This document shows, one piece after another, positions 3,137-61,650 of a stretch of DNA of 64,000 nt. The translations under genes and the position numbers were made by a program. The notes beneath the pieces are model-generated. The model did not search any database and was not told where the DNA came from. It was given only the letters and a program-made list of their open reading frames with translations. Source of the stretch: Diphasiastrum complanatum (taxonomy: Eukaryota; Streptophyta; Lycopodiopsida; Lycopodiales; Lycopodiaceae). Position 1 is the stretch's first letter. Each line of letters opens with the position of its first letter. The stretch covers positions 13,835,658-13,899,657 of the forward strand of contig CM055102.1 in NCBI GenBank assembly GCA_029204225.1, written 5' to 3'.

Positions 3137-3694
3137 CTATTTCTGCATCCCATAGGATCCCGTTACGTTAAGGTGGTTATCCGATTTCACAAACAAAAAA
3201 GTGAGCCCATCTGATAGCTGCAAGCCTGCACCATAGCGCAGCCTCTTGTAAAAGCGTTTCTCAAACATTCCGTCCACTTCTTCATTGCTCAAATCCACCT
3301 TCAACTGCTTTGGGCCATCTTTGGCCTTAGCAAGCAGGTCAGCACCGAGGAGGACCTTCACTATCTGCTCACTAATATTGGGAACTTCAGCAGAAAGCCG
3401 AGCTGAGCTATACTTGACACTAAGCTTATACACCACCATCTGCCTGCTGATCTGCTTATGGATTGAACTCAGCATCTTCTTCACAGATTGTCCAAGCTCT
3501 TTTGATGACAGGACCACATTGGCTGGCTTGTCGGACTGTAGCTGTAGCTGCCAAAGCTTTTTGTGCTGCTCCTCCTTCTGGGTCAGAACCTGGATGAGCT
3601 CCTCCAGCTCCTTCTCAGAGACCATCAGCTTCAGCTCCTGAACATCGTCGCAGCTATCCCATGGGCGGACTCGCTTGGCTCTCAAATTGTCCAT
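3137..3694 (-). CDS. Unrecognised 185-aa coiled-coil protein, copy 1
   Basis: I do not recognise this protein. The start is set at the ATG (3694) giving MDNLRAKRVRPWDSCDD, because the same start is shared by the paralogue at 13475 and the upstream frame has no ATG. Visible parts: a basic N-terminus, a Glu/Lys/Gln-rich heptad-like coiled coil at about residues 18-60, a Ser/Lys-rich middle, and a strongly conserved C-terminal block (about 125-185) with KRFYKRLR, LSDGLTFLFVK and LNVTGSYGMQK. No signal peptide or membrane segment is seen from this start, so it is probably soluble. No intron is needed. The paralogue is intact despite many differences, including in-frame indels, which suggests selection on the protein. 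Function is unknown. Confidence 0.72.
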   Translation of the reverse strand: MDNLRAKRVRPWDSCDDVQELKLMVSEKELEELIQVLTQKEEQHKKLWQLQLQSDKPANVVLSSKELGQSVKKMLSSIHKQISRQMVVYKLSVKYSSARLSAEVPNISEQIVKVLLGADLLAKAKDGPKQLKVDLSNEEVDGMFEKRFYKRLRYGAGLQLSDGLTFLFVKSDNHLNVTGSYGMQK

Positions 3695-3776
3695 AACACC
3701 AAGCGAGCAAGCAACAACAACAAGAGCAGCTAGTAGTCTCCAGTGGAAATGCAAATAGAGTAGCCAACGAGCAGCA

Positions 3777-7407: not shown

Positions 7408-9885
7408 CTAGCTTAGTTCAATCATTGCTTTACTAATCACTCCAAGTGATGATCTAAACTTTATAAAAGGTGTCTTTTGAAGTGGTTTAGTAAGTAGATC
7501 AGCTACACATTCATTGCTTGGAACATGCTCCAAAGCAATCTCCTTGGCTTGCACCATTTCTCTCACAAAGTGATGGCATATCTCAATGTGCTTAGATCTT
7601 GCATGGAAGATTGGGTTAGATGCAAGGTGTTGGACTGATATATTGTCATTGTAGATGATTGGTGCCTCCTCTGAATCCATGATCTTTAGCTCCATCAATA
7701 ATCTCTTGATCCAAAGTACCTCCTTTGTAGTGGTTGTCAAAGCTTTGTACTCAGCCTCGGTTGAAGATAGAAATATAGTTTCTTGCTTTTTTGAAAGCCA
7801 TGAAACCACACCTTCTCCTACGAAAGTTGAATAGGCACTTGTTGATTTCCTATCCCTCTTGTCCCCTGCAAAATTTGAATCACTAAATGGATGAAGGTTA
7901 ATCACATCTCCTCTATATAGAATCCCAAAATCCAATGTACCTGAGATGTATCTTAGAATCCTCTTAGCCTTTTTCCAATGGATATTCAATGGCTTTTGCA
8001 TGGATTGGCTCAACCTACATACACTAAAGCTAAGATCTGGTCTAGTTATAGTGATCCACATTAAGGAGTCTATAAGTTGCCTAAACAAAGTGATGTCCAT
8101 GAAGGATCTTTCATCATCTTCATTTGGCACTTTTACATCTTGTTCCATTGGTGTGTCAACACTTTTGCATACTTCCATCTTAAACTTCTTCAAAAGACTT
8201 TGAGCATAGTTTACTTGACTTATAAATATAAAATCAGACCCTCTAAGTACCTCTATGCCTAAGATGAAGTGAAGACACCTAGATCTACCATCTTGAACTC
8301 TAAAGATAGATCTATCTTGATTTTTTCAATACCATCAACACTATTTCCACTAATGATGGTGTCATCTACATAAATGAGTAAAAGTACAATACCAACATCA
8401 TCAAACTTAATGTAAAGAGTGGGATCATATTCACTTTGAACAAAAGAAAGTGAAATAAGATAGCAATGTAGTCTTGAATTCCAAGATCTCGAGGCTTGCT
8501 TCAAGCCATAGATGCTTCTTTGGAGATGGCATACTTTGTTCTCCATTCCATGCTTAATGAACCCTTGTGGCTGCTCCATATAGATATCCTCTTCCAAAAA
8601 ACCATTCAAGAAAGCATTAGAGACATCCATTTGATATAGGATCCATCAAAAATGTGATGCAAGTGCAATGATTAGCCTTATTGTGACCATCTTGGCCAGG
8701 GGTGCAAAAGTTTCCTCATAGTCTATCCCTCTCTCTTGAGCATAACCTTTTGCAACTAATCTTGCTTTATGTTTGTTAACAATCCCATTTGCATTCAGCT
8801 TAAGCTTGAAGACCCACTTGCATCCTATTACATTCCTTTGAGGTCTCTCAACAAGCAACCAAGTTTCATTCTTAATCAAGACATCATACTCATCTAACAT
8901 AGCTTTATACCATTCTTTGGAGTTCAATGCATCTTCAACATTAGATGGTTCTTCAAAACTAGATAAAGCATAAGAAGTGAATGAGATACCCTCAACTTGT
9001 TGTCCTTTGCCTTGATATGTGAGCCTTGATGGCTCCACTTTTGCCCTTGAAGATCTCCTTGGTGTGATAGGTGGGTTTGGTGCTTGCTCCTCCATGAGCT
9101 CCTCTTCAAAACCAAGATCTTACTCCTCGGCCATCTTCTTCTTGATTGTTGGAGCACTTGAGCCTTCTTCAAGCATATGCATATGATGTTCATCAAAGAT
9201 AACATCCCTTGAAACAACAAATTTGTTCAAGGATGAGAGATAGACTTTGTAGCCCTTGCTTGAGCTTGCATATCCAAGCATGATCCCTCTTGTGGAAGAT
9301 GGATCCTCCTTGGTAAAGGTAGATATCTTGCTCTTATCGGCCAACGTGACAACATTAGTATCCACAAATGCATCCAACTTATAAAGTTTGCCAAGTCTAG
9401 TGCCATTAGCCACTATCTTACCCTTCTTCTTGATGAAACATTCATTTGAAGCAAAGTCAACATTGAAACCATTGTTTAACATTTGGCCAACACTTAGTAG
9501 ATTCTTTGTTATTGTAGGAATGTACAAAACACCTTCTATGTTGATCTTTTTGGAAGATACTAAGCAAAGGGGAATGCTACCAACTCCTTCAATCTTACAA
9601 GCTTCATCATTTGCTGTATAGATAGACTTTATAGGTCCATCATAAGATAAGAGAGAAGAGAAAAACTCTCTTTTGCTAGTCATGTGTCAACTAGCACCCG
9701 AGTCAATCCACCAAGGATCTTCTCCTTTGAAGCTTGTTGAAAAAAATATGGACATCATGAGAGAGTCCTTATGTGAACTCTCCTCCTCCTCCTCTTTGCT
9801 CATGTTGGCTTGGCTTTGATCTTGCTTCCTCTTGAAACATTCCAAGGCATAATGCCCCATCTTGCTACAATAGTAGCACTTCAAT
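7408..9885 (-). pseudogene. Ty1/copia gag-pol remnant lacking the integrase core
   Basis: Reading down the minus strand: a gag zinc knuckle CYYCSKMGHYALEC (about 9880-9840), the protease motif IDSGAS (about 9690), a gag-pre-integrase stretch ending LGKLYKLDAF, then an abrupt jump to the integrase C-terminal signature RGIMLGYASSSKGYKVY with VSRDVIFDE. The catalytic integrase core is missing without loss of frame. Reverse transcriptase follows in pieces (8646-9095 with KWVFK, KARLVAKGY; 8259-8630 with MDVSNAFLNG, YGLKQAS and an intact IYVDD). RNase H follows at 7408-8193 (DRKSTSAY, SSTEAEYKAL, HARSKHIE, DLLTKPL). Stops or shifts separate the pieces. The 5' end is cut exactly at the LTR at 9886. 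Confidence 0.9.
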
Positions 9886-13387: not shown

Positions 13388-13447
13388 ATACTGTCTTTAC
13401 ATTTCTCGTGAGTGATTGCTACTGTCTTTACATTTCTCGTGAGTGAT
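13388..13447. repeat. Tandem duplication in the 5' leader of copy 2
   Basis: ACTGTCTTTACATTTCTCGT followed by GAGTGAT occurs twice, 33-34 bases apart, just before the start codon region of the plus-strand gene. Copy 1 lacks the second unit, so it arose after the duplication. Confidence 0.85.
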
Positions 13448-13474
13448 CTTGTTATTGCTTGCTCGCTTGTTGTT

Positions 13475-14035
13475 ATGGACAAATTGAGAGCCAAGCGTGT
13501 CCGGCCCTGGGATAGCTGCGACGATGTTCAGGAGCTGAGGCGGATGCTCTCTGAGAAGGATGAGGAGCTTGTCCAGGTTCTGATCGAGAAGGAGGAGCAG
13601 CACAAAAAGCTTCGGCAGGTACAGCTACTCTCCGACAATCCAGCCGGGGCCGCCAGTTCAACGCTGTCATCAAAGGAGCTTGAGCAATCCGTGAAGAAGA
13701 TGCTGAGCTTAATCCAGAAGCAGATCAACAGCCAGATGGTGTATCAGCCCAGCCTCAAGCATGGCTCAGCTCAGCTTACTGCCGAAGTTCCCAATATCAG
13801 TGAGGAGATGGTGAAATGCATCCTCGGTGCTGACCTTCTTGCCAAGGCCAAAGAGGCGCCAAAGCAATTGAAGGTGGATGCGAGCAATGAAGAATTGGAA
13901 GGCATATTTGGTAAACGCTTCTACAAGAGGTTGCGCTTTGGTGCAGACTTGCAGCTATCAGATGGGCTCACTTTCCTGTTTGTGAAGGCGGACAACCACC
14001 TCAACGTAACGGGATCCTATGCGATGCAGAAATAG
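13475..14035 (+). CDS. Unrecognised 186-aa coiled-coil protein, copy 2
   Basis: Paralogue of the protein encoded at 3137-3694. The start ATG gives MDKLRAKRVRPWDSCDD. In-frame GTG upstream would add residues, but the ATG coincides with the conserved start of copy 1. It has a Glu/Lys/Gln-rich coiled coil (about residues 18-60), a variable Ala/Ser stretch (PAGAASSTLSSKE), and the conserved C-terminal block KRFYKRLR, LSDGLTFLFVK, LNVTGSYAMQK. Compared with copy 1 there are many substitutions and in-frame length changes (for example EKDEEL against EKELEEL), yet no stop or shift. Third positions are more GC-rich than in surrounding DNA. Function is unknown. It may be a plant-lineage family; a search would decide. 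Confidence 0.75.
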   Translation: MDKLRAKRVRPWDSCDDVQELRRMLSEKDEELVQVLIEKEEQHKKLRQVQLLSDNPAGAASSTLSSKELEQSVKKMLSLIQKQINSQMVYQPSLKHGSAQLTAEVPNISEEMVKCILGADLLAKAKEAPKQLKVDASNEELEGIFGKRFYKRLRFGADLQLSDGLTFLFVKADNHLNVTGSYAMQK

Positions 14036-38469: not shown

Positions 38470-39767
38470 CGATCAATTTTGAAGGGTTATGGATACCATG
38501 CACATACAGAAAGTTTCAATGGGTTGTGATGCATCCCTCATCAAAAGGTGCATTTCTCAAAAGAAAGATATCAAATATGGATTACATAAACTTTTGGAAA
38601 GGAAGAATTTTAGATTTCAAAGTTTCAAAGGGAGGTCAATCCATTTTAGAAGTCTTGATTCAACATGTGTATATGCACAATGAAGTTATGGTGGTGGATG
38701 TCAATCCCGTAGATCGACTCAAATGTAATTGTATGTGATGCAACTTATGCTGGTTTTTCTATGTTAATGATCTACATTCATTATTGTGATATATTTGTGT
38801 TAAAATGGAATATTGTCTTTTGCAGACTTCATCGAGCATAAGCGAATGGCAACCGATACAATCACTTGCAGGCATCATAGGCATCGTTCATTCTGATATC
38901 GGTTTACTCCAGTATAAGCATCGTCCTTTAAAGTTACTTTTGGATTCTGGCATTTTTTTTTACGATTCTCTTTACATACCATGCAAAAATGGCTTGAATG
39001 GCAAACTAGAAACTCTACCTCTACCACATTTTTTAAGTGAGGAATGGGTTCCCCCCGATTCTACCATAGTAGAAGTTTTAGATCGAAGTTTTTTATGGAC
39101 ATTCAAAACTACATGAAATGTAGGACAAGCTCAAAAATCAATAGACTATACTGGTATTTACCATTTGCAATTTTTGTAGATTTTTGTGCTAGATGTAATG
39201 TTCGTAAACAGCTACAATGTTCATTGCTAAGGATTTAACTGATGAAATGATATCAGAACTCCTTGATGATCATTGGGATGGGAAAACTGATGGCAGCATT
39301 CAATGTAGAGCTAACAAATCATCCATGATATTTCGATATCATTTAGAAAAACAAATGCTTTCTTTTATGTTTTATTATAGAAGATGGATTAGAGTTAATA
39401 ATGAATGGAAAGCATTAGATCAAGACTTTACAGTGAACCATCATGAGCAAATGCAAATAGAGGTGAAGCAAAATGGGGTTGTTATCATGACAATTGAAGT
39501 GGAGGAGGATTGGAGTCTAAGATATATACGATCGGAACTTACAATGCTCCAATTTGACATCCCTCAAAACTATGGTTTTCGAGTAAATGGAAGAATGGTA
39601 CATTTTTGTATTTGAATAGTCTGTTATGTAATTGTTATCCTGTTATTTATTAACAATGATTTATTGATAGACCATTTGCAATGTTAATGCAGATCATAGC
39701 AAGGCAAGAAGATTATATCCCATGCAAAGATTTATTGTCAAGCATAGAAATTGTCGAAACAAAATAA
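38470..39767 (+). pseudogene. Gene A: unrecognised multi-exon gene with ubiquitin-like C-terminal texture
   Basis: I do not recognise this protein. Likely coding blocks on the plus strand are 38526-38724 (SKGGQSILEVLIQHVY, NEVMVVDVNPVDRL), 38826-39114 (entered after TTTTGCAG; SEWQPIQSLAGIIGIVHSD, LEEWVPPDS-like), and 39238-39597 (MISELLDDHWDG, LRYIRSELTMLQFDIPQNYG, FRVNGRM). The last joins through GT...AG (39598-39692) to 39693-39767 (IIARQEDYIPCKDLL) with the frame kept. The C-terminal pattern 'strand, helix, VNGR, RQE' resembles a ubiquitin-like fold, which is only an inference. Other junctions do not keep frame and an in-frame stop follows FKTT, so the gene is probably decayed. It is the leftmost member of the unusual 38-47 kb cluster. 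Confidence 0.4.
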
Positions 39768-40296
39768 AAGCTTTGATGGATCAGTAAATCTACAATATTG
39801 AATTTTAGACTGTTAACTTTTGGCTCCTTTTCTATTAACCCACATTGTTTATTGAAAAATGTAATTCCATTGTTTTCATGTGCAGGTTCAAGGAAAGTGC
39901 AATGAAAGATGGAAGTAGCAACAATAGAATATCAAATGATGGAAATAGCAACAATCGAATATCAAAAGACCCGAAAGGGTCATCATTTGTACACATTGAA
40001 TGTAAATTTTTGAAGTACATATTTTTATATTGGCCTTTCAATAGGACCATCTATCTATTTCTCTATATAAATTTCTTTTCCATCAGCTCTTTCAAGTGCA
40101 AGCTGCCCCTGCTTCTTGTTCCGTTGTCACCGATGTTGCATTAGAGAGGAAAATCTTAATCATCTCTTGTCGAAATTCAAATATGTCATTTTGTATGAAT
40201 TTTGGACAGGTGAACTGCAAATCATCAACAATAAACAAGTTAGACGAATACACAAAAACAAAAAATCATATAAATAAAATCAGTGTACATCCAAAC

Positions 40297-42009
40297 TCAA
40301 ATTTCTAGACGTATATCGACATTTTTACCTTGGCTAATGAACCATTCCATAACGCATTTTACATTTTTAATGGCATACCAGCCACAACTGAATGAGTCAA
40401 CTTGCTGAGAGGATTGAGAATCAAAATACAGAATGTTAGTTTCATATTTTTTTTATATGGCAATTTGCATCACGATAAAAGTAATTAAAAAATTGGTTAC
40501 ATGTGCATCTATTATCTCTATGTGCTTTGCTACACACAAGGCCTTTGTTGGAAAATATATGATCATGCTTTTGTACATCTCAATGTCCACATTGAGGTGT
40601 GTTGATCTCAAAGAGTTCATTCTCAACACCCTTGGATTGCACAAACCGGCTTCATCCACTCTTAGTGATATAATATGTACAGACCAGTGATGACTGCAAT
40701 CAACCAAATAGTCAACGATATGTAAATGAAAAAAATACAAATAAAGCATACAACAAAACAAGACATACAATTCAAACAAAACAATATATACTTTGACAGT
40801 ATGGTACAACAAAATTTTTGGTGTCGCTTGGCATGGGTCGTAAACATGATGAAGCTGATTGCTCGTCCTTAAGTGACAAAAAAATTGAGTAAGCACAAAA
40901 ACACTAGGAACACTGTCGCTTTTGTACAATTGAACCCAATAATTGAGTCCAACTTCGACAATTGGATCTGTGAGGTCCGAAGAGTAATTTATTAGTTCCT
41001 TACAGAAAGCAGGATTAAAATAATTCATATATGAGGCCGAATATATACTAAATACAAAGTGACCACCTAATTTATCTATTTTTTTAGCTATGTACTTGTC
41101 AAAAATTATATATCATTCAGAATAAAAAAAATGTCAGCATGGGATCGACCGGATATTGAACAACTAAATTTTTATATATAGTTCCTATTGATTGAGAAGG
41201 GCTTTTAGGAAAGAGAGCAATTGATTTTGTGATGTATCTATCCAGATCCTCTGTGGTGCGTCTGGGCACATCCAAAGACTGGTCACTATCAGAAGAGTAA
41301 TCTAGTAAAAAATTAGACCAAGAGTGACAGAAAGACCCTTTTGAACTTTCAGTGTATCAAGAATCAATTGGGTCTGGTCTATCATCTGTTCGGTCTCATC
41401 TGATAGTACTAATCTTCTTTTAGGTGGAGGTGGAGGAGAGGGGGAGTCTTCAACTTTCACCCTAGATGAACCAGCTTGATCATGAGTTGGCTGGTCCTCC
41501 ACTGGCTTGATTTGGCCTTTTTTGGCCTTGGTTCCTGACCTCACTGGCCTTGATTGATTTCTTTTTCTCTGATAAGGGGGTGTAACCTTGGGAGCAGGTC
41601 GGGGAGGTGGAGGTGCCTCGAACACTTGCTCATACTGATTCCTCAGCCTGAACACAAGCTCCATATCTTTTGGCATGATAGTCACCCACTTTGCATGTAC
41701 AACAACAAGCACAGTGTCCTCAAAAAATCTAATCTGATAATCTTCATAGGCTGTATGCAAAGCTTCAATGCAATCACGCACCATCTCACATCCACGAAGA
41801 AAGATCTCGTCACATCCCTCACTATCCTGTTGAAGTGAGCTTTTGGTATCAGTAGGTTGGTGGACTTCTGTAACCTCCTGATATCTCTAAGCCATGGGCG
41901 GGGTTTTATGCCAGTCCCCCTAGCACGAGGTCTAGCAGCTGCAGGATGAAAGTTGATCAGCAGACAGGACAATAGATTGTGGACGCGCGGTCTGTTTAGT
42001 CCTTGCCAT
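40297..42009 (-). pseudogene. Gene D: histone H3-like domain joined to a Ulp1/C48-type cysteine protease domain
   Basis: The ATG at 42009 gives MARTKQTARPQS, the exact H3 N-terminal tail with Lys4 kept and Lys9 replaced by Pro. After a one-base shift follow RPRARGTGIKP and DIRRLQKSTNLLIPKAHF, then VDVR. After a compensating one-base loss follow DCIEALHTAYEDY, RFFEDTVLVVVHAKWVTI and MPKDMELVFRLR: the whole histone fold in order. A Pro/Lys-rich linker (APPPPRPAPK, SPSPPPPPKRR) follows. A third frame change near 41330 leads to YSSDSDQSLDVPRR and LDRYITKSIALFPKS. The C48 region starts near 41080 (DKYIAKKIDKLGGHF, YMNYFNPAFCKELI). After an apparent intron it continues with HHWSVHIISL, RVLRMNSL (Asn where catalytic Asp is usual) and QQVDSFSCGWYAI (oxyanion Gln and catalytic Cys). 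The H3 identity is firm; that H3 and protease form one gene is inferred from strand, spacing and lack of another start. Confidence 0.72.
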
Positions 42010-42873
42010 ACCTTTCCGATATCGCAGACACGCGAGTAGATCGTAGATGAATTAATTGTATACAGGTTCTCGCGTGGCTCTGATATCAGACAAAGAGATT
42101 CCAATATCGCAGGGGCGCGAGCAGGGACCGAGCCTCTCAGAAAGAAACTAGACCGTCGCACGACTTTGATATTCTGTTTGGGCGACCGAGAGAAAGACAC
42201 AATTCACAAATCTGATAAGCAAATGGTTTTTAATCACAGTCTCTGCTTATATAGAGAGATATTTTTTATGCATTGAATGAAAGAGCGCCACGTGCCAATT
42301 TCTGATTAATGTGTCATGTTAATGATTGTTCCACACATGCAGATATACATGTCCAATTTTGAACCACATACGTGCCAATTTTTTATTGGTGTGTCCTATT
42401 AATGATTGTTCCACACGTGCAGATATATGTGTCCGATTTTCAACCACACGTGTCACCTATGGATTTGGCCGACATTTCACATAAATGCTCCACACGTGAA
42501 CGGCTGTGATGAATCTGCGAGGTGTATATAAGGGCTAAACACTGTCATAAAATGTTTTGCTTACTCAGAGATCTTGATTGCAATATCGCAACCATGTGAC
42601 TCTACTGCTTTTGATCTTATTTGCCAGCACTCCCTCGCGTGCCTGTGATATTGGATATTCTTGTCAACTACCCAATATCGCTACCGCACGACGTTGCTGT
42701 TACTTTTCAAAATTTTCAGCTCACCGTTGCGTGCCTTCCATATCTTTACATGCTTGTTTCCTTCATATCACTGCCACGCGACAGTGCCTCTCCGAATTTG
42801 AATTTTGGCCATTCCTTGCTGCGATATCCAGTATCTAGTTTTCCTTGTCATATCTAATATAAAATCTGACAAG
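42010..42873. promoter_or_regulatory. Divergent promoter between genes D and B
   Basis: A minus-strand TATA box CTATATAAGC (42245-42254) serves gene D and a plus-strand TGTATATAAGGG (about 42523-42534) serves gene B, about 270 bases apart. Between them are two 80-bp direct repeats (from 42291 and 42371, with CGTGCCAATT and AATGATTGTTCCACAC). Four CACGTG G-box cores occur at about 42289, 42413, 42447 and 42494. Both leaders carry repeated GATAT/ATATC segments next to CGCG or GCGTG. The two-way arrangement suggests co-regulation. Confidence 0.65.
42291..42450. repeat. 80-bp direct repeats in the divergent promoter
   Basis: Units start CGTGCCAATT at 42291 and 42371 and each includes TTAATGATTGTTCCACAC, GCAGATATA and TGTCC. 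A partial third starts at about 42449. Confidence 0.88.
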
Positions 42874-44390
42874 ATGCATAAGTTCCTCTCTGATGCTGGT
42901 GTTCTAGACAAGACTGAGTACTTTTCATCTCTTTTTCGACTGAAATTTGATGTCGAGATATTTGTGCTTGAGCACAAGTCTCACCTATTGGAATTATTCG
43001 AAAAGTTTCGGACTAGCATCCAAGAATTATCTCTTGTTATTGATGGCCTGAAATTTATTCATTTCCATGAATTGATAGTTGCCCAGCCTAAAGCCAAACA
43101 CAAGCATGATAGGAAGTTTACCAAGCTTGACGAGAGCCTGAAGGTTGTACAATATTGAGAATCCTATAGATGATCATGTAGGTTTATAGCTGAGGGCATA
43201 GCTTTTATTTTCTTCATGTATGTCTTAATACCTGATGAAGGCCAATCTTCCAGATCAATTGGTGTTGGTTCTTCAAGTAGAACATCTACTCAGAGATGTA
43301 TTGTCGATGTGGACAAAATTTAGAAGACGAAGTATTGGGTGATGAGGAAGAGGCTAGGCTGGCTTCGATGTATGACCTTGCTCTATCACGGTCAATGGTA
43401 ATATCTTCTACAGGTGTAGAAGAACACGATAAAAGCAAGACACTTATTGACATTCTTGTATACCATATGAATAGTCTACCATATTTTTCATTGAATGATA
43501 TTGGGGATGTGTTAGATATGAGAGAGGATGAGATCCTATCTATACTAGCCAATGCAATATCTGAATTTTCGGATATAATAGACTTCAATCATAATGATTT
43601 AATTGAAGGGATTGACTATGAAGATGAAGGTGATTGGAAGTCTGGAGAGCAGGCCTTACAAATTGCAAGGCAACAATGTCTAGCCTATGGAGCAAATGCT
43701 CCTAGTGAGGAGGAGTTTATTGAGTTTCAAAAAAGATATCCTCCTCCAGAGCAATACGTTTTTTCTGAGGTAGTGAGAAGTATTCTTGTTGGGCATGACT
43801 TGCGTGGAAAAGGATTGTTGGAGTATGACCAACATGACATGGTAATTTTCATTTTCTTATTCTATCATAATCATATTTGGCATTCTATTCAATCAAAATC
43901 CATCTAAAAGTTAAATTGATTACAAATTTTTGTATTTATGTTGCAGGACACAATTGAAGTTGATGATTTTTCTACGAGAAGAGGAGGTGCCCGAGGTGTT
44001 GTTGGCCAAAAGGATTCAACATTGTGCCATTACTTGAAATCCTTTGTACAAAATGAAATTTGTATTCAAAATGACAACTTTTATTCACAAGCAGAAACTA
44101 TAGTAATGGCAATAAAGGCATTGTCCTATTTTTGTGATGGACATAGATATCCTAACAGACATACAAAATCATTTTTGTGAAGACAAATATAGTTATAAAA
44201 ATATTGGGTTATGTTTTTGAAAATGTATTCAAAAGATCATATGCTTTAGCAGTGTACGCAAGTTACATAGAGTTGAGCAAACGAGGATCGATTGAGCATC
44301 TAGATCCATATGAGAGGAGAAAATTTCTTCACGACCATACTGCTCAGCTGACCTTTTGTACCGATGAGGATATGTAATGTTTTAATTGTT
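42874..44390 (+). pseudogene. Gene B: unrecognised multi-exon gene
   Basis: I do not recognise this protein. The first block (42874-43158) starts MHKFLSDAGVLDK and ends in a stop after LDESLKVVQY. A second block (43296-43840) is acidic and includes MREDEILSILANAI, GIDYEDEGDWKSGEQAL, EEEFIEFQKRYPPPEQYVFS and VGHDLRGKGLLEY. It splices cleanly (ATG|GTAATT...TTGCAG|GACACA, intron 43841-43947) to DTIEVDDFSTRRGGARG, CHYLKSFVQNEIC and IKALSYFCDGHRYPNRHTK. A one-base shift at about 44178 leads to ILGYVFENVFKRSYALAVYA and PYERRKFLHDHTAQLTFC. It has no signal peptide or membrane helix. The divergent promoter and cluster position tie it to gene D. Confidence 0.45.
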
Positions 44391-44396
44391 TTTCTA

Positions 44397-46946
44397 TTAC
44401 AATGATGAAGTTGAACTGTTTCTCCTCAGATGTTGAAATGCCTTTTTGAATAAAATTAGATTTGTTGAATATTTGGTTTGATATCTAAACTGTGCTCTTC
44501 TATAGAACCATTGAAATAATTGATATAAATAGCATCTCTTTGAATTATATCCTCCATGGTTGGTTGCTCGATGAAAAGATCCTCTTGCTTGCCAATGCGA
44601 TTTCTCCATACCTTGAGAAGACCATATGCTCATACTTCCATATTCTTTTGCAAAAAATGTGGTGTGATGTAATAGAATATGATGCAACCACTAAAATACA
44701 TATATCAAAAATCAAATATATGACATTTTTGAACAATTTTTGCACAAAAAACAGATAGTGAATTACCATATAGTGTGTAACATGATCCTCTCCCCAACAT
44801 TCTGCTACCGATTTGACAAATATCTCACAATATCTTTGTAAATTTGCAATGTCGATTTCAAATAACTTTTCTTTTTGCAACATGCTAATCAAATTGTCGA
44901 GATTTTGCCATACTGCAGCTTTTTTTTAATCTTGTGTTGCCTCTATCTTCAAAATCTTTTGATGTTGCAACGTCGTCTTTCCAAACATTGTATGTCACGG
45001 TAGAATACTTTCCATTGTGATTGGATAAAAAAAACTTCTATCTTTTGCACCTCCAACAAATGGCTTGTTTGGAATGTTCCCTGATTTACCCGATAGTATT
45101 TCACTTTTTTCTATTTTTACATTCTCCTTGTGCAAACCTGCTTTTGAAAGTACTTGCTCTAATATCTCAATTCCAATTTTAGAGGCCGATTCAGGTTTGG
45201 TATTCCAGACATACAAAATATGATTGTAAATCAATTTTTTAATAAATCGTACTCAGCATGCAATGTGCATATGTGAATGTTGATCAATGGAATTGCCAAC
45301 ACAGGTCTAAAGTTCAGATCCTCTCGATCTCTTGTTGGACCAACTCTTGATCTTGTCAAATTCAAGTCTTTACAATTCTTCATACAATACAAACAAGGAT
45401 GTTTAGTATTTGCCCCATGCGAAACATTATACATACATTTTAGTGTCTTTAAATCACCTACAAGATGCCATAAAATTTGAAACGTGCCATAGTTTGGCAC
45501 ATAAATCTTGTTTCCACCCATGTGCTCTTCAATGATCTTCGCATAATTTGATGTCAAAAAAATCCACGACAAGATAGCATGGTCTTCTTTTAGAACCTGA
45601 AAAGTAATAAACACATACAAAGTTACAAACATTGACATTAGCAAGCTTAGGTGATAAGATACAATAATAAGTAAAATTGAAATATACCTGAAATGCTGTT
45701 AACTACCATATTTCATTCTTTGATTGAACACTAAATGATGAATCATCTGCATCATTTTCAGTAATGTTTAATGCTCTGTTCCATTTTTTGTCCCTTAACA
45801 ATTTCAGACTCATCAAGTTTTATAACCAATATCAATTTTCCTTGGACTTCTCTTTCAAATATTTTGTAATATTTAATCATGTATGCCACTACTTTGTTAA
45901 TATCCAAAAATAAATTGTTGGACTCATTGTATTCCAATATTCCACTCTCACATGTATACAATTTCTTGATATGAAATGGTTCACCTATAAGCATATTCAT
46001 AGTCTCATTAAGACAATATCAAGCTTTTTTTACTCTAAACGGACGAGGAAGAGATAGCTTTCGAATCTTCACATGTGCAAAGGCTTCCTGTACAATTTTA
46101 AACAATAGAGTATATGCTTTACGACTAATTCTTGAATCATCACATGCTCCCTAGATAACTCTTGCATCCAAGACATGTTGAATGCTCTGTATAATCACTG
46201 TAGCAATATCATTCTTAATCCTGTCATAACAAGAATTCTTTAACATTTCTTTTGTAGTTTTTGATGACAATATGGAACCCAAAGATTTTCCAATACTCGT
46301 AGAATCTTTATGATATTCTCTCGCCACCAAAGATGATTTGCAAAACATAATAAATAATAAAATTAGCAAGCATTAGAAAAACAAGGACATAAAAACTTAG
46401 CAAGCGTGTCATTTGCTCTTTTAATTAATACTTACTTCAATGTCTGAATCCTTTTCTTCTTGTTTCCACTTCTTGAAGACAGATCATCTATGTCTTTTTT
46501 TGGAAGTCGTTTGCGTTTTCTCATGTCTAATTTTCTCCTGAGAACTTCGCCTTCAGCAATAGCACTCAGGCTTTCCCTTTTAAAATTCTCAACGTCTCTC
46601 AACATAACTTGATTGGATATTTGAAGATTAGTAACAATAGTTTGCAATTCTGATATATTGGAGCTCAATGTCATATTGATAGTATCCCAACAATCCACTA
46701 TGTCCATTACACACAAAATTCAAGCCCAGTAGTTTGAAAGTCCAGAAAACATCCTATACTTGGATCTTTGGGATAGATTGATCCAACTATCCACAAATCA
46801 ATATTTCTACAATTTCTTTGTCTAAGTTCTTTCTTACAAGTCTCATTAATCTGACCAGCTTTGGTGTTTTTCTTATTAACTGGAGCACAATCAAGTGGGA
46901 GCACAATATGAAGATCAAACTTTTCCATTATTTCAAAATCAAACAA
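44397..46946 (-). pseudogene. Gene C: transposase-like protein with D...D...E candidate triad, interrupted
   Basis: Minus-strand order: MEKFDLHIVLPLDC (46928); a coiled coil plus nuclear-localisation-like RKRKRLPKK (about 46500); then after an intron one frame from 46350 to 45758 holding DSTSIGKSLGSILS, ISRKAYTLLFKIVQ and LPRPFRVKKA. It is broken by TAG at 46151 and a TGA at about 46030. KLILVIKLDES (about 45814) would give the first Asp, and WHLVGDLKTLKCMYN (about 45455) the second. Zinc-binding-like CLYC...HICTLHA (45393-45273), WGEDHVTHYM (about 44780) and EYGSMSIWSSQGMEKSHW (about 44606) follow, the last with the candidate Glu. I recall similar proteins as repetitive 'hypothetical' families in seed-free plants and other eukaryotes. 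The RNase H-fold assignment is inference. The copy is inactive. Confidence 0.6.
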
Positions 46947-46949
46947 ACT

Positions 46950-47998
46950 AAATTATGTAACGAGAAAATAATTCACACAAAACCAAAACAAGCTTGTAAA
47001 TCATTAAACATGCATGTTATATAATCTACCTTTCAAATGTTTTCAAAGATTTTTGGAGGGAACACCAAAAACTTATCCTCTCCTCCTCCTCCCACTACTA
47101 ATATCTTCTTGAGAGCGTGAATAAAAGCTTTTTGGTGTGCTTAGGCCGCGTGTGCTTAGTCGACTGTGTGCTTAGGCGGTGTGTTTATTTCATTTGAGCT
47201 GGAAACTAGAAAGATAGCAACAAATCTTGTCGTGTTTACTTTCTCTCTCTAATCATTTTCTCACTAAGTTCAAGTTTGTTATAGTGCCCTTTTTGAGTTG
47301 AGGTTTCCCCTAATGATCTCAAAAACAAGTTTGAGAAAAGGCCTAAATTTCCAGGTGGCAAGAGGAATTTTCAGAGAATATCCAATCCAGGGTGGTGAAT
47401 GCTCTAACAACTATCTTAGCTAAGTATTCTACTTGACATTAGATTAACCACCTTCCATCAATGTTTTTCAACATGCAGGTTCACAGGAGGATTTTGGGCA
47501 CAAATCCCTTTATTCTCAACATGCAGTCACCGAAATCATGTACAAAAAATGTTAATTGTTCATATTAACATGATGAATTGACTTACATCAATCAATCTAT
47601 GAACCCAAACTGTGATGACACGATTCAACACATTATGGATTGAAGCATGCAATCAAACTTAACCAAGTGGAATCTAGCAAAAAAACAAGCCTCCAGATCT
47701 ACACTAGCAGATCATTCTACCACAATTGAAACCTTCCTCAAAGAATAGAAAATTATGAATGAAGTCACAAAAATTCTCAGCATCAATACCAAATTTAGCC
47801 TAGTAGAAGACCACTCTACCACAATTTTGGAGAGTATGCTGCAACCAGAATTTTGTGAATCCGTTTTCATTACCCCACATGAGAAATCAGCACTCCAATC
47901 CGAGGATGCAACTCCAAGTGCTTTCACTTCTAATCACAAGTAGAACTTGCCTCTATCCCATCCAAGACCGCATCTTAGCTGGCGGGCTCTGATACCAA
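46950..47998. other. No gene recognised; short GTGTGCTTAG repeats
   Basis: GTGTGCTTAG occurs three times at about 47134-47180 with 16-17 base spacing. The rest is AT-rich with short frames only. A copia leader probably occupies about 47700-47986. Confidence 0.45.
47987..47998 (-). other. Primer binding site
   Basis: TGGTATCAGAGC on the minus strand, one base downstream of the LTR end ...CTTTACA. It marks the LTR at 47999 as a 5' LTR in minus orientation. Confidence 0.8.
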
Positions 47999-59007: not shown

Positions 59008-59409
59008 GTGGAGGATGACAATCCAGGATCCACATTAGGCAAGAAGAAGAAAGACAATTGTTTCTATTGCCAAAAGCCTGGACATTGGGCAAGAGATTGT
59101 TGCAAGAAGAAGACGGATATTAAGCGGGACAAAGTGAAGCAGATGACCAATTTTGCCGAAGAAGAGAATGATAGCGATAACGAAGATCAAGGCACCGCAT
59201 TTGTGACAGCATTAGCATCACAACATTCCATTGATCACACACATTGGTTCGTGGACTCAGGAGCAACGAGACACATGACTGGCAACAAATCATGGTTTAA
59301 AAACTGGAGCTTATTGATGATGGAGATAGAGTTGCATAGACAAATGGCGATGACTGCCAAATTCATGGAGTTGGTGCAGTGCCTATTCAATTTTTTGATG
59401 GACATGTGA
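59008..59409 (+). pseudogene. copia gag zinc knuckle and protease
   Basis: One open frame with the knuckle CFYCQKPGHWARDC at about residues 18-31, an acidic spacer (EEENDSDNEDQ), and the aspartic protease active site WFVDSGATRHMTG at about residue 80-92. Downstream of the active site the frame departs from the family and ends early; ENLLYVWSSEESFIR-type sequence continues in another frame. Confidence 0.88.
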
Positions 59410-59613
59410 AGGTGATTGAAAATTTGTTGTATGTCTGGTCTTCAGAAGAGTCTTTTATCCGTTGGTACAATGACAGACCATAAGTTGAAGGTGGAATTCA
59501 ACAACAAGAAATGCCAGATCAAGGATGTGAAATGGGATTTCAAGGTGATTGTTGATGGCTTTAGCGATAAAACTTGTGGTTTGTACAACTTAAATGATGT
59601 TACGAAGTGAAAT

Positions 59614-60884
59614 GTGTTAGCATCTACATCTATATCACAAAGTGATTTATTGCATAGACGTATGGGGCATTTGAATGTCAAGAGCTTGAGGCTACTTCGT
59701 AAGCTCAAGATGGTAACGAGTCTACCTAGTTTGGATGACAAAGAAGAGTCCATTTGCAAGGAGTGCGTGCTAGGCAAGTTACACAGGAAGAAGTTCAACA
59801 AAGAAGGAGCAACAAGGGCAAAACGAGTGCTTGAGTTGATACGCTCTGACCTATGTGGGCCAATGAAGGTAATGTCTATTGGTAAAGCATTTTATTTGCT
59901 AACCTTCATTGATGATTACTCACGAAAGACCTAGATCTACACCATTAAGCAGAAGTCTGACACATTTGGATGCTTCAAAACTTCAAAGCATTGGTTGAAA
60001 ATCAGTCAGGTGCTAAGACCAAGGTACTTAGGGCAGATCGTGGTGATGAGTATCCTTTCACATATTTTACTGATTTTTGCAAGGAGCATGGCATTAAACA
60101 GGAGTTTGCACAAGTTGATACACCTCAACAAAATGGAATAGCTAAAAGGAAGAATCGTACAATTGTTGAAGCAGCTAGGGCAATGATGACACATACGGGA
60201 GTTACCGATTTTTTATGGGGTGAAACTGTCAAAACTATTGTGTTCTTGCAAAATAGAAGCCCTACAGTTGTTGTACATAATTGCACACCCAAGGAGGCTT
60301 TCACTGGTAAGAAGTCTAAGATGGATGGGTTGCGAGTATTTGGATGCCAAGTGTATGTTCACATACCTAAGACCGAGAGAGCCAAAATGCAGGTAAAGGC
60401 CTTGAAGTGCATTTTTACAGGTTATAATGAACAAACCAAGGGATATAGATGTCATGACCCAAATGGGCTACGTGTGCACATAAGTCGTGATGTCTTATTT
60501 GATGAAATCCATAAGATTGGGCATGAAGAAAAGGATAATGATGAGCTATGTAAGCTTCTCAAAGAGAATGAAGTAGTTCCACCACCACAGGAAGATCATC
60601 ATGATGATGACGAGGGACGTGGTACTCCTCCCACCATAGAGACAAGATGGAGAGTGAGAAACAAATCTATTGGATCAGAAAAGGTTGAGGTAGCAGATGA
60701 TAAAAGGAAGGAGCAAGATGCACCATGGGATTCCTATTCACCTCGTAGCGGATCACCTCAACGTAAGTTACCTAAATGGTATACTAAACTCATGAGTGAC
60801 AAGGAAGGGGAAATTGCCGAGTCTAGTAAGGAGGGAGAGTTGCAGCATTCCACAAGAAAGAGGAAGGAACCTGACAGGTTTTAG
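59614..60884 (+). pseudogene. copia integrase, catalytic Glu lost
   Basis: GAG-pre-integrase RRMGHLNVKSL and the CKECVLGK finger part lead into the core: RSDLCGPMKV, FIDDYSRKT-stop. After a frame change come KVLRADRGDEY, HGIKQEFAQ and PQQNGIAKRKNRT. The Asp contexts are kept, but the Glu of the usual NGxAERKN motif is Lys. The C-terminal region has RVFGCQVYVHIPK, GYRCHDPNG and HISRDVLFDE, followed by an acidic, Pro-containing linker. A TAG at about 59935 splits the core. Confidence 0.9.
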
Positions 60885-60899
60885 GTAAATCTTGCACTT

Positions 60900-61650
60900 A
60901 TGAGTGATATTATTTCATCTGCTGAACTCTCTTGTTTTGAGAAGGCCAAAAATCAGGAGATATGGCAAAAAGCAATGCAGGAGGAGATTGATTCCATCAA
61001 ACACCATGACACGTGGGAGATAGTGGATCTTCCAAAGGGCAAAAGACCCATTGGCAACAAGTGGGTATACAGGACAAAGTACAATGCCGATGGAACTATT
61101 GCAAAACACAAGGCAAGGCTTATAGTGAAGGGCTGTGCACAAAGTAAGGGCATTGACTACAAAGAGACCTTCGCTCATGTGGCCAAGTGGAATACACTTC
61201 ACATGGTGATTGCTTTGGCAGCACTATTTGGATGGAATCTACACCAGATGGATGTAAAGTCCATGTTCCTGAATGGTATGCTTGAAGAAGAAGTGTACAT
61301 GGAATAGCCTAGTGGCTTTGTGGTACATGGAATGGAAGAGAAAGTATGCAAGCTGAAGAAAGCCTTGTATGGATTGAAGCAAGCACCATGTGCTTGGTAT
61401 AGCCACTTTGATGAGCATATCCTATCTAGAGGTTTGACATGCACTTCTTCAGATTTCAATCTTTACTACTTTGCTCGTGACTCTAGTATCACACTAATTG
61501 TGCTGTACGTACATGATCTCATAATCATGAAAAATGATGATGATGATTTGATTGGTGCAATCAAGAAGGACTTATCTTCTAGTTTTGATATGATTGATCT
61601 TGGCTTGATGCACTACTGTTTGGGCAAGGTTGCAGTAGCATCGCACTAAC
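60900..61650 (+). pseudogene. copia reverse transcriptase, YVDD changed to YVHD
   Basis: The frame shows NKWVYRTKYNADG, KARLIVKGCAQSKGIDY, HQMDVKSMFLNGMLEEE and a TAG in place of Gln after VYME. It then shows ALYGLKQAPCAWY, LIVLYVHDLIIM and FDMIDLGLMHYCLGK. The first catalytic Asp of the YVDD box is His (codon CAT at 61512-61514), which would abolish polymerisation in known RTs. Confidence 0.92.

Follow-up and report, generated by a model that had tools for sequence, protein, structure and literature searches.

Transposons that carry DNA-modifying enzymes, histone methyltransferases or anti-silencing proteins are known. The VANDAL transposons of Arabidopsis encode VANC, a demonstrated anti-silencing protein (PMC5735166, excerpts), and some VANC genes also carry a Ulp1 domain (Kaonashi/KIU; PMC13317346, excerpts). 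TET/JBP genes have also been described in fungal transposons, and SET genes in those of oomycetes (PMC12730594, excerpts).

The locus reported here lies in a stretch of 64,000 nucleotides from Diphasiastrum complanatum (contig CM055102.1, positions 13,835,658 to 13,899,657), called the window below. Very probably, a DNA transposon with four genes, among them a transposase of RAG1/Transib fold, has left a decayed copy in the window, and its gene 3 encodes an H3-like protein joined to an Ulp1-type C48 cysteine protease (H3::C48). As in VANC-Ulp1 of VANDAL (excerpts of PMC13317346 and PMC5735166), an accessory gene of a plant DNA transposon joins another protein to Ulp1. However, the partner in VANDAL, which are non-TIR MULEs, is VANC, a protein binding DNA motifs, whereas here it is histone H3, and the element is bounded by 35-bp TIRs and encodes a transposase of RAG1/Transib fold. 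With Transib and RAG-like transposons (excerpts of PMC9435367 and PMC7204232) the element shares the transposase fold and the spacing of catalytic and zinc residues; it differs from them in having four genes, a TIR starting with CATTAGAGG instead of CAC, no 5-bp TSD at two copies and no RAG2 that we could recognise. It resembles the fungal TET/JBP and oomycete SET transposons in being a DNA transposon with its own chromatin-modifying protein, but those elements encode DNA- or histone-modifying enzymes, while here we find the histone itself, joined to a protease.

Among the papers listed by our literature search, which largely leaves out subscription papers, bioRxiv and Repbase, none deals with a transposon-encoded H3 or an H3-Ulp1 fusion, and the word 'histone' is absent from the main text of a 2026 review of plant transposon gene capture (PMC13317346). 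As far as this search reached, a transposon with a core histone appears to be new, and so does a histone joined to a protease. The element may serve as a direct test case for changes of nucleosome composition by selfish DNA, and the fusion may be a naturally occurring means of directing a SUMO-type protease to chromatin. In addition, it brings a plant lineage with accessory genes into the RAG1/Transib transposase group, for which 39 plant Transib-like proteins have already been reported (PMC9435367, excerpts). The presence of such a fusion gene in a many-copy jumping gene suggests that the element tampers with host chromatin through a counterfeit histone.

Gene content and ends of the transposon

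The limits of the element are visible in a copy of subfamily B (L031+L017; C7:71809545-71818225, 8,681 bp), in which perfect inverted repeats (35/35 bp) stand at both ends, where copy-to-copy similarity ends, and thus bound the repeated sequence. Its genes are ordered transposase (+), geneX (-), H3::C48 (+) and gene 4 (-). In translated searches, pieces of all four genes of L017 and of other B-type copies matched the window at about 28-69% identity, and the window genes have the same order and relative orientation. The decayed transposase (gene 1), whose kind was assigned from its relatives, is at 44439..46348 on the minus strand, geneX (gene 2) at 42820..44344 on the plus strand, H3::C48 (gene 3) at 40137..42009 on the minus strand and gene 4 at 38496..39600 on the plus strand.

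The ends of the window copy lack a firm assignment. A search of the window with the B-type TIR gave one weak candidate terminal repeat as its best match (47289..47315, minus strand; score 15, next best 14), located beyond the transposase, as expected; the other TIR was not found. No TSD is visible at either of the two TIR-bounded copies (L017 and L024), though the 35-bp arms of L017 are identical.

Neither geneX nor gene 4 reached a Pfam cut-off in the pieces scanned, which for geneX came from relatives. The first half of gene 4 looks BAH-like by eye, and the last part of a gene 4 relative was modelled as strand-strand-helix-strand-strand. As this model is of low confidence (pLDDT 53.6) and Foldseek returned nothing for it at E <= 0.001, the BAH-like or ubiquitin-like reading of gene 4 is a by-eye remark.

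The transposase agrees with RAG1 in its catalytic and zinc residues

The relatives of gene 1 have a RAG1-like fold. Among 24 relatives, D170 (conserved in at least 90%) and the invariant D280 are spaced by 110 residues, compared to 108 in RAG1, and C300 and C303 are invariant. In the C-terminal part, two His residues five apart are followed by a Glu 20 residues after the second, and this arrangement is invariant in four aligned pieces, as in RAG1. The pattern agrees with the RAG1 set of D600-D708, C727/C730, H937/H942 and E962 (PMC4914335, excerpts). The transposase has a fern relative; none was found in phage records and viral contigs, and the transposase profile gave no match to PDB sequences at E <= 1. 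In the subset of pieces scanned with Pfam, none of the MULE models scored above its cut-off.

RAG1/Transib transposons have TIRs starting with CAC and a 5-bp TSD (PMC7204232, excerpts). The B-type TIR starts with CATTAG (CATTAGAGG) and neither TIR-bounded copy has a TSD, and we therefore class the element by its transposase alone and not as a Transib/RAGL transposon.

Gene 3 of the window is a broken copy

An earlier note on this DNA, made from the letters alone, had proposed an H3 tail with Lys4 kept and Pro at position 9, an H3 fold with LQKSTNLLIP-type motifs, a Pro/Lys-rich linker and C48 motifs on the same strand, and all of these are indeed there. Read from 42009 on the minus strand, the order is MARTKQTARPQS, WLRDIRRLQKSTNLLIP, FFEDTV, HAKWVTIMPKD, the Pro/Lys linker, HHWSVHII and QQVDSFSCGW. 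The gene has four exons. The tail MARTKQTARPQS, which has counterparts in relatives, occupies 41974..42009, the H3 fold, split over two frames, 41635..41938, and the linker joining H3 to C48 approximately 41400..41634. The first part of C48, which precedes the catalytic exons and matches residues 231-405 of the relative L060, is at 40793..41314. It is followed by exon 2 (40504..40692), with the His of HHW and an Asn (RMNS), exon 3 (40312..40416), with the Gln and Cys of QVDSFSCGW, and a last exon (40137..40220) slightly beyond the range first assigned to the gene; all these parts are on the minus strand.

Pfam recognises Histone in the piece 41302-41784 (37.9 bits, cut-off 26.4), and Peptidase_C48 reaches 16.6 bits (E 0.0075), below the cut-off of 20.7, in the piece 40300-40452; the larger piece, 40456-41112, has no Pfam match at E <= 1. 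The gene consists of five open segments (41935-42051, 41685-42203, 41305-41886, 41120-41356 and 40456-41112) separated by four frame changes, one more than the minimum of three counted earlier. As these segments lie in different frames, this copy is broken. L060, a relative in the same genome whose frame is open from the H3 tail into C48, aligns along the window gene: 56% of 410 columns at 42009-40825 (E 2e-117), 87% of 63 columns at 40692-40504 and 83% of 54 columns at 40404-40243. The arrangement in the window is therefore not due to chance.

Copies and subfamilies in the genome

The H3::C48 gene belongs to a multi-gene, many-copy transposon. The window copy is a relic, as had been assumed, but not a solitary one. 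A Histone-family search of the same genome (1,744,706,496 bases, 5,176 contigs) gave 6,325 first-look candidates, 150 of which were scored, with 153 matches. Thirteen of them score 163.7-165 bits, and all eight recovered as loci (L001-L008) are canonical H3. The remaining matches among those listed score 82.8-109.5 bits; many lie in open frames of 200-417 aa, and others contain stops. A search with the H3-linker piece of the window gave 5,299 candidates (150 scored, 151 matches), a figure that yields a lower bound only on copy number, because search candidates are not copies; among the 150 scored, the best genome matches besides the window itself show 80-87% identity.

From the matches of the Histone-family search we took another 40 copies, half of them about 9.9 kb and half about 1.6 kb long, and preferred those with long open frames. 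Sorted by text patterns, 20 belong to subfamily B, 16 to subfamily A and four (L011, L027, L044 and L053) to neither, L011 falling with A in the tree described below.

H3 and C48 form one gene in relatives of the window copy

The earlier claim that H3 tail, H3 fold and Ulp1/C48 lie in one gene was borne out. In 11 of the 20 B-type copies, the H3 fold and the first C48 part share one open frame in a single exon. Undamaged copies with both domains, which the earlier note had proposed to look for, exist too: two of the six B-type copies modelled, L017 and L024, give complete open four-exon models of 470 aa, and each of the three L017 introns begins with GT and ends with AG. These spliced models score 97.3 and 94.2 bits with Histone (PF00125; cut-off 26.4) and 42.2 and 39.9 bits with Peptidase_C48 (cut-off 20.7). 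Of the others, L028 goes out of frame in exon 2, and no complete model was obtained for L016, L022 and L023.

In the subfamily of the window, L060 has a 516-aa open frame that begins 14 residues before MARTKQT, spans H3, the linker and intron 1 into C48, and runs into a stop where exon 2 ends. Its Histone score is 88.5 bits (PF00125, cut-off 26.4), and 60 of 60 rows among its listed PDB matches are named H3 or H3 variants. Other window-type open frames are 440 aa (L057) and 302 aa (L058/L059) long. The spliced window-type model scores 88.2 bits with Histone, and Pfam finds no C48 in it. The profile search proposed earlier thus succeeded for the histone throughout and for C48 in the B-type models, but not for C48 in the window, where it stays below the cut-off, or in the window-type model. 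The C48 identity of the window type rests mainly on exon-by-exon similarity to the B type, together with the weak window match of 16.6 bits. Intron 1 has the same phase and a matching place in B-type and window-type copies.

Might H3 and C48 nevertheless be two tandem genes whose joint frame is accidental? The A-type elements (L009-L015, L018-L021, L025 and L026) could be taken to say so: their H3 is not fused, contains a long Pro/Gln-rich insert that separates the tail from the fold, and ends at a stop of its own (in L009 a 417-aa frame with the tail MARTKQTARDPR), and C48 exons were found in none of 13 A-type loci of 9.9 kb. In the B and window types, however, H3, linker and the start of C48 lie in one exon, with about 270-400 stop-free codons, in separate copies. 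We thus reject two separate genes on these open frames and regard that arrangement as highly improbable. As no C48 was found in these A-type loci, the protease is not needed in every lineage.

Conservation of the tail, the fold and the presumed catalytic residues

The window-type tails are MARTKQTARPQS in the window, MARTKQTTRPKS in L060, MARTKQIVRPKS in L055 and L056 and MARTKQIARPKS in L058 and L059; the other types include MARTKQTARDPR (A-type, L009), MARTESTARATT (L027) and MDRRKQTRRDFF (B-type, L017). Across these copies position 9 is Pro, Asp or Ala, and in the window-type relatives a Lys comes right after the position-9 Pro. The tails of the window type, of L009 (A-type) and of L017 (B-type) retain Lys4, and L027 has Glu in its place.

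Canonical H3 of the same genome (L001-L008) has the same tail start and histone fold, but gene 3 differs from it in the C-terminal C48 extension, the altered Lys9 context and its place in the tree. In a quick tree of 60 H3 domains (88 columns; 32 of 48 inner branches unresolved), B, the window type and L027 form one group (SH-aLRT 98) that is separate from canonical H3 and A. The folds differ from canonical H3 at many sites, so that entry into nucleosomes is not assured. Two aligned positions, which we take to be His113 and Asp123 of H3, are unchanged in the window and in the majority of the other aligned rows. The strongly diverged H3-like domains of L044 and L053 sit on long branches near the A-type branch.

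The dN/dS values are biased downward, because the copies used had been selected for HMM score or an open frame; for the H3 fold they are 0.21 in 20 B copies (codon bootstrap 0.13-0.35) and 0.32 in six B copies, and three window-type copies give 0.18 and ten A copies 0.40. The disordered A-type insert gives 0.41, the same as the A-type fold. The linker gives 0.70-0.74, and the first C48 part (0.50-0.78) is under weaker constraint than the H3 fold. The fold thus shows signs of constraint.

The presumed catalytic residues were read by a pattern scan of 34 loci, in which the His and the neighbours of the Asn were fixed and the Asn position itself was free. In exon 2, the position where Asp is expected holds Asn in 14 of 14 reads, including both fully open spliced models, and Trp follows the His in 13 of 14. 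The Asn had been taken earlier as damage; being family-wide, it is not, and we reject decay as its explanation. Exon 3 gave ten pattern matches, one of them spurious (L023), and the Cys is present in seven of the nine genuine ones; in L016 it is replaced by Tyr, and in L022 the stretch is gone.

When proteins were searched with the H3-C48 exon, 1,707 candidates yielded 355 matches, and the 120 listed cover 25-40% of the query, which is the H3 part. For the C48 part of the spliced model, none of 715 candidates reached E <= 10; both searches need exact 5-residue words and cover few named plants, and make no statement on other species. P0001, P0004, P0076 and similar proteins, about 390-425 aa long, start with MARTKQTAR or a near-variant and have a near-canonical H3 fold and a long insert that looks unrelated to the A-type insert; many of the 120 matches listed are similar in length.

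Possible roles of the H3::C48 protein

How might such a protein serve the element? The earlier note had suggested that it could place an isopeptidase in nucleosomes or, as an H3 mimic, recruit Lys4 readers. In the reading that we prefer, the H3 part would bring it to chromatin, either by pairing with host H4 or by binding H3 chaperones, and an H3 with Pro, Asp or Ala at position 9 would resist H3K9 methylation. The protease part presumably acts on SUMO, as is usual in the Ulp1 family, and would strip SUMO or a related modifier from factors of silencing or DNA repair that work at the element. With an altered Lys9 context and SUMO removal combined, the protein would act as an anti-silencing factor, keeping the element transcribed and mobile. 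Chromatin targeting coupled with SUMO-type cleavage against silencing would make it comparable to VANC and VANC-Ulp1 of VANDAL. Taken jointly, the H3::C48 identity and this anti-silencing role seem plausible to us, but we hold them tentatively, with slightly less than even confidence. A bolder version, in which the element builds its own nucleosomes, its H3 with the tethered SUMO-type protease replacing host H3 on the mobile DNA, blocking its H3K9 methylation and stripping SUMO from silencing factors bound to it, is unlikely; if true, it would mean a selfish histone beside a RAG1-family transposase in one element.

RAG2 reads the H3 tail, and the reverse of this is conceivable here: the fusion might be a transposition cofactor, in which the H3 tail or fold tethers the RAG1-like transposase complex to chromatin or direct target choice, while the protease remodels the complex. 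The first C48 part is present in all six B-type loci of 9.9 kb, that is, in an element with a RAG1/Transib-fold transposase, and Lys4 with its neighbours is kept in several subfamilies, which would suit such a role. However, nothing in the scanned pieces could be recognised as a RAG2-like protein with kelch or PHD domains, geneX and gene 4 being below Pfam cut-offs, and the tails of the B type (MDRRKQTRR) and of L027 (MARTESTAR) depart from the H3 tail. We consider a cofactor somewhat unlikely. It might also be assumed that host H3 and host Ulp1 were captured as passengers (Pack-type capture) and do nothing for the element. Many copies do contain internal stops, and plant transposons capture pieces of host genes (PMC13317346, excerpts). 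Yet two subfamilies that have diverged deeply (39-43% identity between H3 matches) share this gene at the same position, the dN/dS of the H3 fold is low, and both the intron and the reading frame are kept, so mere passengers are quite improbable. The anti-silencing role, conditional as it is, thus remains our preferred reading.

Other features of the window

A cluster of CRATATCRCA-like sites lies at 42015..42829, between the divergent H3::C48 gene and geneX, and resembles VANC-bound motif arrays. It contains 8 of the window's 22 sites (<=1 mismatch), two overlapping pairs among them; the motif was picked only after being noticed, and 22 sites in the whole window are unremarkable, 15.8 being expected and 22 being reached in 10 of 100 shuffles. 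Such sites also occur in L055, L056, L058 and L059, and were found neither in L057 nor in five A/B copies. Two 80-bp tandem repeats, 86% alike, are located at 42290-42448, upstream of the H3::C48 gene. Elsewhere in the window, translations of 7408-9683 and 59008-61649 look by eye like remnants of Ty1/copia-like retrotransposons, and two open frames that resemble each other (205 and 207 aa), one on each strand, at 3137-3754 and 13412-14035, represent a duplicated gene piece.
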